Below, piece by piece: positions 4,573 to 24,392 of a DNA stretch of 42,781 nt; position 1 is the first letter of the stretch; each line of letters opens with the position of its first letter. The notes below the pieces were generated by a model that worked only from the letters and a program-made list of their open reading frames with translations, was not told the origin of the DNA and ran no database searches. The position numbers and the translations under genes were made by a program. The DNA lies in contig NZ_QVMH01000003.1 in NCBI RefSeq assembly GCF_010501035.1, positions 70,258 through 113,038 of the forward strand. The letters are read 5' to 3'. The DNA is from Paludibacter sp. 221. GTDB lineage: Bacteria > Bacteroidota > Bacteroidia > Bacteroidales > Paludibacteraceae.

Positions 4573-5085
4573 TTAATCTTCTTCCTCATATTCATCATCC
4601 ACGTCAATACTTGTATCCACATCAAATACTGATAACTGGCGGTGAAATATCTCATCGAGCGAAATCTGGAAAGTTTCAGTATGCCCTACCCCCTGTATCA
4701 CCGAAAGTTTTTCCAATATAATATCCAACAAGTGCCTGTTGTCCTTCGCATATATTTTAATGAACATCGCATATTTTCCTGTAGTATAATGACATTCTAC
4801 CACTTCGGGTATCTTCTTCATCTCGCTAACCACCGAGTCAAACAATTTCACATCGGTAAGTGTGATACCAATATACGCACAGGTCTGGTAGCCTATCTTA
4901 TACGTATCTACAATAAATTCAGAGCCTTTGATAACGCCTATATTGCGTAGTTTCTGGATGCGCTGATGAATTGCAGCACCAGACACATTACACTCGCGGG
5001 CAACCTCTAAAAACGGTATCCGGGCATCTTTCGATATTAATTGTAAAATCTTTTTATCTAACCTGTCAATTCTATGTTGTCCCAT
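4573..5085 (-). CDS. Lrp/AsnC family transcriptional regulator
   Basis: A DNA-binding regulator that typically senses amino acids and forms dimers to octamers. Residues 5-60 form the AsnC-type winged helix-turn-helix (IDRLDKKILQLISKDARIPF, then ARECNVSGAAIHQRIQKL as the recognition region). Residues 68-145 form the RAM ligand-binding and oligomerisation domain, with the characteristic PEVVECHYTTGKYAMFIKIYAKD. The last 16 residues are strongly acidic (ending DDEYEEED), an extension beyond the usual end of about 150-155. It has its own consensus promoter at 5144-5174, overlapped by a palindrome, and its own terminator, so it is a single-gene unit. Autoregulation is common in this family and would fit the palindrome. 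The ligand and target genes cannot be told from sequence. Confidence 0.92.
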   Translation of the reverse strand: MGQHRIDRLDKKILQLISKDARIPFLEVARECNVSGAAIHQRIQKLRNIGVIKGSEFIVDTYKIGYQTCAYIGITLTDVKLFDSVVSEMKKIPEVVECHYTTGKYAMFIKIYAKDNRHLLDIILEKLSVIQGVGHTETFQISLDEIFHRQLSVFDVDTSIDVDDEYEEED

Positions 5086-11358: not shown

Positions 11359-11401
11359 ATTTACAATTTACAATCGCCTTATTTGATTGTAAATTGTAAA
11401 T
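11359..11401. repeat. Heptad inverted repeat between rpsK and rpsD
   Basis: ATTTACAATTTACAATC (11359-11375) and its exact reverse complement (11385-11401) form a perfect 17-bp stem, extendable to 19, with a 9-nt loop. Each arm is two and a half copies of the 7-mer ATTTACA. A diverged copy (TTTACAATTCACA, 11341-11353) sits to the left. The rest of the 223-bp gap (11197-11340) shows no gene or promoter match. The stem has no GC-rich core and no U-tract beyond it, so it is not a normal terminator. Confidence 0.85.
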
Positions 11402-15318: not shown

Positions 15319-15400
15319 AGTAGTGAGTAGTGAGTAGTGAGTAGTGAGAATAGAGTTAAACGAAACTCCTTGCTCCTTGCTCCTTACTCCTTGCTCCTTT
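15319..15400. repeat. Two facing heptad arrays between rpmD and rplO
   Basis: Left array: AGTAGTG repeated four times plus AG (15319-15348), exact throughout. Right array: CTCCTTG, CTCCTTG, CTCCTTA, CTCCTTG, CTCCTTT (15366-15400), five consecutive 7-mers. They are separated by 17 bp. The two heptamers differ but have opposite purine/pyrimidine polarity, so on one strand the first array is purine-rich and the second pyrimidine-rich. That makes imperfect pairing of the arms possible. No coding potential or promoter is seen in the gap. Confidence 0.9.
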
Positions 15401-23323: not shown

Positions 23324-23944
23324 TTATTTATTGATGTAAACGATTGAATTTTTTGCTCCCGGTACCGAACCTTTTACTAATAAAAGATTGTGCTCAGGAA
23401 TTACCTTTAATACCTGTAGGTTTTGCACTGTTACTTGGTCACCTCCCATACGTCCGGCCATGCGCATTCCTTTGAATACACGTGACGGATAAGAAGAAGC
23501 ACCTATCGAACCCGGTGCGCGTAAACGGTTGTGCTGACCGTGAGTAGCTTGACCCACACCACCAAAACCATGACGTTTTACTACACCTTGAAAACCTTTA
23601 CCTTTTGATGTTCCAACAACATCAACAAAAGTGTCTGCTTCGAACAACATGTCTACAGTAAGCTTATCGCCTATTTTCAATGTTTGTTCAAAATCTTTGA
23701 ACTCAACCAAGTGTCTTTGAGCTGTTACTCCCGCTTTCTTAAAGTGACCTGCTTCCGGTTTTGAAGTGTGTTTTTCAGTTTTCTCTTGAAAACCTAACTG
23801 AACTGCTTCATAACCATCAGTATCAACTGTTTTGATTTGGGTAACAACACAAGGACCTGTTTCGATAACAGTGCATGGAACGTTTTTTCCATCGGCACTG
23901 AAAACGGAAGTCATTCCGATTTTTTTTCCTATTAATCCTGGCAT
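23324..23944 (-). CDS. rplC: 50S ribosomal protein L3
   Basis: Early assembly protein whose long loop reaches the peptidyl-transferase centre. It has 206 residues: [20 protein letters not shown], the loop [48 protein letters not shown] with the Gln that is methylated in some bacteria. Complete. Upstream, towards rpsJ, is a 142-bp gap with facing heptad arrays, an unusual interruption within the S10 gene string. Confidence 0.98.
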
Positions 23945-23960
23945 TTCAATTAAATTATTT

Positions 23961-24082
23961 AGTTACAAGTTACGAGTTACGAGTTACAAGACTCTATTAG
24001 CACGTAACTAATTATTTTTTTTGTTTTTTAGAAACGAATCACAAGACCAAGCCTGAAAACTTGTAACTTGTAACTCGTAACT
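23961..24082. repeat. Facing heptad arrays between rpsJ and rplC
   Basis: Left array (23961-23990): AGTTACA, AGTTACG, AGTTACG, AGTTACA, AG, with no interruptions. Right array (24060-24082): CTTGTAA, CTTGTAA, CTCGTAA, CT, which is the inverse complement of the same heptad. AGTTACGAGTTACAAG (23975-23990) pairs perfectly with 24067-24082. The 69 bp between the arrays are AT-rich and show no gene. The structure would form a large stem in the rpsJ-rplC transcript. Confidence 0.9.
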
Positions 24083-24086
24083 GATA

Positions 24087-24392
24087 TTATACTTTAATCT
24101 CTACTTCTACACCACTTGGCAATTCAAGTTTCATCAAAGCATCAACTGTTTTGCTTGTTGAGCTGTAAATGTCGATAAGACGTTTGTAAGATGAAAGTTC
24201 GAATTGTTCGCGTGATTTTTTGTTTACGAAAGTCGAACGGTTTACAGTAAAAATACGTTTGTGAGTTGGAAGTGGAATAGGACCACTTACTACTGCTCCT
24301 GTTGCTTTTACTGTTTTTACGATTTTCTCAGCCGATTTATCAACCAAGTTGTGATCGTATGATTTCAGTTTAATTCTAATTTTTTGACTCAT
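24087..24392 (-). CDS. rpsJ: 30S ribosomal protein S10
   Basis: Head protein of the small subunit, also the NusE partner in antitermination. It has 101 residues: [20 protein letters not shown], the loop [45 protein letters not shown], and [12 protein letters not shown]. Standard. It lies between a fusA-side hairpin (24431-24468) and the heptad arrays before rplC. Confidence 0.98.

Follow-up and report, generated by a model that had tools for sequence, protein, structure and literature searches.

A heptad-armed hairpin between rpsJ and rplC of Paludibacter sp. 221 is probably a gene-less member of a dispersed family of elements encoding intervening-sequence proteins

The 23S rRNA intervening sequence (IVS) of Coxiella burnetii, which is about 430 nt long and carries the S23p gene, is closed by a 28-bp terminal stem, undergoes excision by RNase III, carries, ahead of the gene in its 5' region, tandem heptamers whose number varies between strains, and was termed a selfish element by the authors of the report that describes these features (PMC4990558). 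Direct repeats of the heptamer TAACTGA have been reported from Beggiatoaceae, Cyanobacteria and some Bacteroidetes (PMC4679880). The heptad elements described here resemble both systems. As in the IVS described in PMC4990558, a PF05635-type gene may lie in sense inside a transcribed unit, together with a terminal inverted repeat stem and tandem heptamers. Unlike the IVS, the heptad elements lie between protein genes, in many copies and with different units, and the copy between rpsJ and rplC is located outside 23S rRNA and lacks the PF05635 gene that a copy between sdhA and sdhB, with arms of the same AGTTACR unit, possesses. With the TAACTGA repeats (PMC4679880) they have in common that the tandem heptamers are intergenic, sporadic, placed forward just upstream of start codons and present in ribosomal protein operons; the unit found here, TAACTYG, resembles TAACTGA but is not identical to it. 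In contrast to the TAACTGA repeats, for which only one inverted case is tabulated, the heptads of the present study are tied to inverted arms, to genes for intervening-sequence proteins (IVPs) and to miniature hairpins, and the words 'intervening' and 'four helix' are absent from the main text of PMC4679880.

The stretch of DNA that was analysed, referred to as the window, comprises 42,781 nucleotides of contig NZ_QVMH01000003.1. The features at its rpsJ-rplC junction are the following:

23324-23944, minus strand: rplC (ribosomal protein L3), the downstream gene
23961-23990, plus strand: AGTTACR heptad arm, TAACTYG on the transcribed strand; the 3' arm in the mRNA, with the rplC start codon 17 nt further on
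23975-23990, plus strand: one side of a 16-bp perfect stem, the other side being 24067-24082
23991-24059, minus strand: loop of 69 nt between the arms of a 23-nt inverted repeat, without an ORF
24058-24082, minus strand: inverse heptad arm with AGTTACR as its transcribed-strand reading, about 5 nt past the rpsJ stop codon and thus the 5' side of the mRNA hairpin
24087-24392, minus strand: rpsJ (ribosomal protein S10), the upstream gene

From the rpsJ stop to the rplC start there are 142 bp, which on the minus strand consist of a short lead, AGTTAC units, the 69-nt loop, inverse units and the final 17 nt ahead of the rplC ATG. Period-7 arrays were called by Tandem Repeats Finder at 23961-23990 (4.3 units of AGTTACA/G) and 24058-24082 (3.6 units), and a repeat search returned an inverted repeat of 23 nt with 96% identity and 69 nt between its arms (23968-23990 / 24060-24082) as well as a perfect one of 16 nt (23975-23990 / 24067-24082, 100%). 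The inverted AGTTACN arms and the 16-bp perfect stem that the initial annotation had placed between the two genes can be read directly, and two programs agree on them. The terminal inverted repeats are predicted to be able to pair as an RNA stem (16 bp perfect, or 23 bp at 96%), and the predicted fold of the transcribed strand has an energy of -38.3 kcal/mol versus -20.7 (sd 3.2) for shuffled sequences (z -5.4). In the window as a whole, 9 exact period-7 runs were found versus 0.85 expected. The matching choice of A or G in the two arms had also been taken as a sign that the arms were copied from one another or are kept paired. This argument does not stand by itself, because 78% of simulated random 3- and 4-unit arms match over two successive units, and the A/G agreement therefore carries little weight. 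When 22 elements were scored, the best in-register arm score exceeded the mean for permuted unit orders in 21 of them (23.1 versus 19.5), in a comparison that is biased by the choice of the stretch from the observed alignment; this fits with arms that are kept in phase.

The initial annotation regarded an insert of 142 bp as noteworthy at a junction that is normally tight. This view is supported by the reference genomes, since the gap is at most 39 bp long in 25 of the 33 Bacteroidales/Bacteroidota reference loci in which the gene motif used for measurement found both genes (80 loci in total, 47 of which were not measurable). However, it does not hold for the family of the source organism, where 9 of the 11 measured gaps are 85-159 bp long and have unrelated contents. 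This suggests that the rpsJ-rplC junction is a recurrent landing place. AGTTACR arms are present in this gap in the source genome (G000) and in G001, and an AGTTACR array is present in G111. The same-genus genomes G058 and G031 have a different sequence there, so that the nearest relatives are without the AGTTACR hairpin at this position; rplC was not found in G076 when the junction was sought. Other hairpins were seen in the gap of G058, G031, G089 and genus g2, and unrelated hairpins of the CCCCTAAAGGGG, GATCCCC and CCTCTTGAAG types were noted at L184 (G089), L186-L188 (G034, G143 and G147) and L181-L182 (G058 and G031). The junction thus appears to take up several kinds of insert. A full IVP element was sought in the rpsJ-rplC gaps of the relatives and none was found, the gap of G111 having an array that adjoins rplC and no IVP. 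Just ahead of this array (L192; G111:C220) the C-terminus of rpsJ is unlike that of the relatives; the end of the gene may have received an insertion, or the assembly may be at fault. No target-site duplication is evident at the rpsJ-rplC element, as judged from the occupied site alone, and the approximately 20 nt outside the arms correspond to an ordinary gap size.

These observations bear on the idea that the S10 operon has in this hairpin a conserved attenuator, leader or terminator of its own, as the position of the hairpin between two ribosomal protein genes and the stability of its predicted RNA might suggest. Such an element is hard to reconcile with a gap that is short in most reference loci and has unrelated contents in same-genus genomes, with the absence of any Rfam family at gathering score at the hairpin, with a terminator scan whose only hit lay on the plus strand inside rplC and which left the transcribed strand of the hairpin without any, and with the presence of the AGTTACR heptad at dozens of other places. 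We regard this explanation as highly improbable, and an S10-operon-specific regulator or terminator was rejected on the basis of Rfam, the terminator scan and the junction comparison.

Indeed, the AGTTACR heptad is not specific to the rpsJ-rplC junction. A pattern of three AGTTACR units with at most 2 mismatches had 120 matches (64+56) in the 3.1-Mb source genome versus 0+0 for the reversed control, and exact matches were patchy within the family (12 of 150 genomes). Inverted heptad pairs within 300 bp occurred at 1 per 400 kb of control stretches, and gene-less heptad pairs are therefore not common everywhere. The source genome has 39 places called as AGTTACR arrays, and for 37 of them a next gene was called in the direction of TAACTYG. 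TAACTYG stands in sense ahead of the next start codon, at a distance of 3-104 nt, in 25 of these 37, and of the other 12 arrays 8 read AGTTACR no more than 7 nt past a stop codon. Since most AGTTACR arrays of this genome have no complementary partner within the same gap, arm pairing is not obligatory; clear pairs are the rpsJ-rplC element, the sdh element and L240, and L236 is a partial pair. One array of about 25 units (L242; G000:C70, ~4859-5040), in sense and 22 nt ahead of the next gene, shares its gap with other heptads at the upstream end and is likely to be a length-variable locus.

The placement of the arrays would also be expected if a regulator of the translational or post-transcriptional type bound to them close to start and stop codons. 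An IVP may then be that regulator, and rplC may be controlled through the hairpin. All 25 arrays in sense ahead of a start codon lie within 104 nt of it, and the TAACTGA arrays of Beggiatoaceae, some of them inside ribosomal protein operons, are placed alike and have been proposed to be such sites (PMC4679880); yet the genes beside the AGTTACR arrays look unrelated, the occupancy of junctions changes between close relatives, and sister species keep the architecture with units of different sequence. Altogether, we consider it improbable that regulator binding accounts for the arrays.

Heptads are found at two further junctions of the window:

11359-11401, minus strand: second gene-less inverted heptad pair, of ATTTACA units, with 16-bp perfect arms and an 11-nt loop
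15319-15348, plus strand: heptad array, CACTACT on the transcribed strand, shortly ahead of the rplO start codon
15366-15399, plus strand: array of a different heptad, with CAAGGAG as its transcribed-strand unit, located where the rplO junction starts on its upstream side and not complementary to 15319-15348

The ATTTACA pair lies about 20 nt past the rpsK stop codon and is located upstream of an S4-Bacteroidia leader (RF03139, 11259-11293) and rpsD. The junction upstream of rplO (15319-15399) combines two different, non-complementary heptad units.

The AGTTACR unit that is dispersed in the source genome also flanks an IVP gene there. Between sdhA and sdhB, inverted AGTTACR arrays (C30) enclose an ORF of 124 aa, the product of which is a four-helix bundle that matches TIGR02436 with an E value of 9e-40 and has 2gsc and 2rld as its nearest PDB entries. 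This ORF is a PF05635 gene encoding a 23S rRNA intervening-sequence protein (IVP/S23). A likeness to Avd, the accessory protein of diversity-generating retroelements, extends to the same broad four-helix family and is a weak match (E 1.5e-6, below the curated cut-off). The AGTTACR-armed IVP element at sdhA-sdhB is present in the source genome and in G001, which belongs to another genus, and the junction is unoccupied in the same-genus genome G031, where only 5 nt stand ahead of the ATG. G022 has an IVP-sized ORF with other repeats at this junction, in G013 the gap is long, contains heptads and lacks any ORF reaching 100 aa, and in most of the other loci (30 loci, with sdhB not found by the gene caller in 3) the gap is short. 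The 69-nt loop of the rpsJ-rplC element showed no similarity above shuffles to the IVP element at sdhA-sdhB.

The association of IVP genes with inverted heptads is not confined to the AGTTACR unit. The source genome has 14 PF05635 matches, several of which lie between inverted heptads of very different sequence. For each IVP gene, an inverted repeat was sought between the 220-bp flanks with a score cut-off of 13, genes being called simply as longest ORFs. In the family, 54 of 79 IVP genes proved to be flanked by tandem 7-mers (8-mers in some cases) in inverted orientation, the unit being particular to each gene, versus 0 of 312 displaced windows; the 79 were examined out of 123 matches, and of the other 44, three belong to the source genome itself (two of them fragments, the third below the cut-off) while the rest had no fetched locus and mostly score lower. 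Inverted flank repeats were seen at 3 of 265 random genes. In eight further genomes inverted arms were present at 24 of 30 IVP genes (those with loci, out of 40 matches) versus 0 of 68 displaced windows, and in a sample of the phylum, biased to good matches by taking the best-scoring locus per genome, at 13 of 29 versus 3 of 116. PF05635 proteins were found in 90 of the 118 sampled genomes of the phylum. The best arm period was 7 in 51 and 8 in 10 of 67 IVP elements, and the elements were 389-671 bp long, with a median of about 470. Units of the 8-mer type, e.g. GTTGATTA and AATCGCRG, were observed at L208, L209, L211-L213 and L342.

The IVP genes also show a marked preference in orientation. 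When only IVPs with both neighbours callable were counted, both neighbours were co-directional with the IVP in 65 of 70 cases in the family, 20 of 21 in the eight genomes and 21 of 25 in the phylum sample, versus 150 of 265 random genes (Fisher p-values of 1e-9, 3e-4 and 0.01, respectively). IVPs opposed to both neighbours were seen in 1 of 70 and 2 of 25 cases in the family and phylum, versus 26 of 265 random genes. In the full-length elements the 5' arm lies a few nt past a stop codon and the 3' arm shortly ahead of a start codon. This sense bias of the gene-bearing copies may be the result of an RNA route or of selection for expression. The proteins encoded next to IVP genes (270 neighbour proteins, those shorter than 40 aa being dropped) gave no match to the proteins of the window.

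A general co-variation of IVP and arm sequence was considered and rejected. Before removal of pairs with a homologous neighbour on the same side, 15 of 18 IVP pairs with at least 65% identity had a common 6-mer (15 of 19 in a recount in which pairs were counted slightly differently), whereas after this removal the number was 8 of 11, identical to the 8 of 11 obtained with the partner reversed. Likewise, local alignment of the arms of similar IVPs gave a separation no better than that of the reversed control.

For the units that were tried, the heptads of a genome nevertheless tend to correspond to the arms of IVPs in that genome or in close relatives. AGCTACR is the arm unit of IVPs in G058 and G076, and AGCTACR arrays, counted after these arms had been seen, number 180 in G058, 151 in G076 and at most 2 in each of 22 others. 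The 8-mer AATCGCRG, present in IVP arms of G058, was counted 8 times in G058, once in G076 and not at all elsewhere. CAAGARYC, which forms IVP arms in G000, G022 and G143, was counted 53, 7 and 2 times in these genomes, respectively, and also in G033 (7), G024 (4), G147 (2) and G001 (1), with 2, 1 and 1 occurrences of the reversed control in G000, G001 and G024. AGTTACR arrays were present without an AGTTACR-armed IVP among those scored in G010, G058, G143, G147 and G089. In G058 the arrays mix AGTTACR and AGCTACR units, and one of the two units may therefore derive from the other.

Of the AGCTACR places in G058 and G076, 20 were fetched, and 17 of these proved to be inverted pairs that enclose no gene and have loops 23-124 nt long; these hairpins have the same architecture as the rpsJ-rplC element. 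Most of the loops are bounded by AAGTGCCATGCGG-like and GCATACGACTT-like sequences and occur facing either way with respect to the gene downstream; the best loop-loop scores were 92, for the same site in G058 and G076, and 21, with shuffles at 8. At L383-L402 the high-copy AGCTACR hairpins, which have a common loop of 42-47 nt and occur in both orientations, form a MITE-like family of these sister species. Common ends and interior are a MITE-like trait seen in the loops of G058 and G076; the source genome has few paired AGTTACR copies, no common loop was found among them, and the 69-nt rpsJ-rplC loop has no likeness to the AGCTACR loops of G058 and G076. The miniature hairpins of these two genomes are also located between convergent or divergent genes, which indicates that the sense bias belongs to the IVP copies. 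REP/REPIN sequences and their RAYT transposases are a known case in which short dispersed inverted repeats match the sequence of a resident protein-coding element. The present system is similar in this logic only: the protein concerned is a four-helix bundle (TIGR02436) in the case of the IVP and an HUH transposase in that of RAYT, and in the arms tandem heptads take the place of a tagged palindrome.

Such arrays could also be ordinary simple-sequence repeats, with replication slippage expanding 7-mers in intergenic DNA and template switching within quasi-palindromes matching the arms, without any mobile element. In most of the genomes examined, heptads have been named as the most frequent of the long simple repeats (work of Mrazek, as cited in PMC4679880), unit numbers vary, up to the array of about 25 units at C70, many arrays are single, and matching of two arm units is expected by chance. 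However, slippage does not explain the occurrence of one unit at dozens of sites (120 matches versus 0), the common loops in G058 and G076, the finding that inverted arms surround the genes of a single family (54 of 79 versus 0 of 312) or the unoccupied sister junction at sdhA-sdhB. We consider this explanation unlikely, to much the same degree as regulator binding sites.

Our preferred reading is that the rpsJ-rplC hairpin is a miniature, gene-less member of a dispersed family of heptad-armed IVP elements, which we hold to be probable, if by no means certain. We read this family as related to the rRNA intervening sequences; an element so far known mainly from ribosomal RNA genes would then have a genome-wide form that is undescribed. 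Searches of open-licence PMC papers gave no report joining PF05635 genes to heptad arms outside rRNA. Full-length members consist of a PF05635 gene with an arm of tandem 7-mers, or in some cases 8-mers, on either side, the two arms being inverted, and lie in sense between co-directional genes; the length of the unit is nearly constant and its sequence differs between elements. Dispersed arrays and miniature hairpins tend to carry the heptad of an IVP in that genome or in close relatives. This match makes it probable that the IVP, or the agent by which it is moved, works in trans on heptads of its own kind, and suggests that the IVP or a partner recognises the heptad. In the mRNA, paired arms would form a duplex of 20-30 bp, and the duplex between rpsJ and rplC is probably cut by RNase III; such cutting is demonstrated for the IVS (PMC4990558) and is proposed here by analogy. 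A cut at this position would part the rpsJ and rplC messages with neither gene being harmed, and the insert would be tolerated for this reason.

A more far-reaching proposal is that these elements constitute a new mobile class, in which tandem heptads are recognised by the orphan four-helix-bundle protein of PF05635 and carried by it into gene junctions, whether or not its own gene goes along. The spread may take place at the RNA level, given that gene-bearing copies nearly always stand in sense, or be coupled to transcription and may still be ongoing, each protein lineage would have its own heptad, and the rRNA intervening sequences would be one special landing site. We advance this proposal tentatively, as a possibility that we hold with distinctly less confidence than the family membership of the hairpin. 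If it is true, a large share of the simple-sequence repeats of heptad type in Bacteroidota genomes would be traces left by such elements.

The link between heptads and IVPs gives a concrete substrate and a testable role to PF05635 proteins, the function of which is called unknown in the literature consulted, and it ties the rRNA intervening sequences to a genome-wide element. It also suggests where intergenic heptamer repeats, for which earlier reports gave no explanation, may have come from, and it predicts possible cut sites in the messages of ribosomal and metabolic operons.
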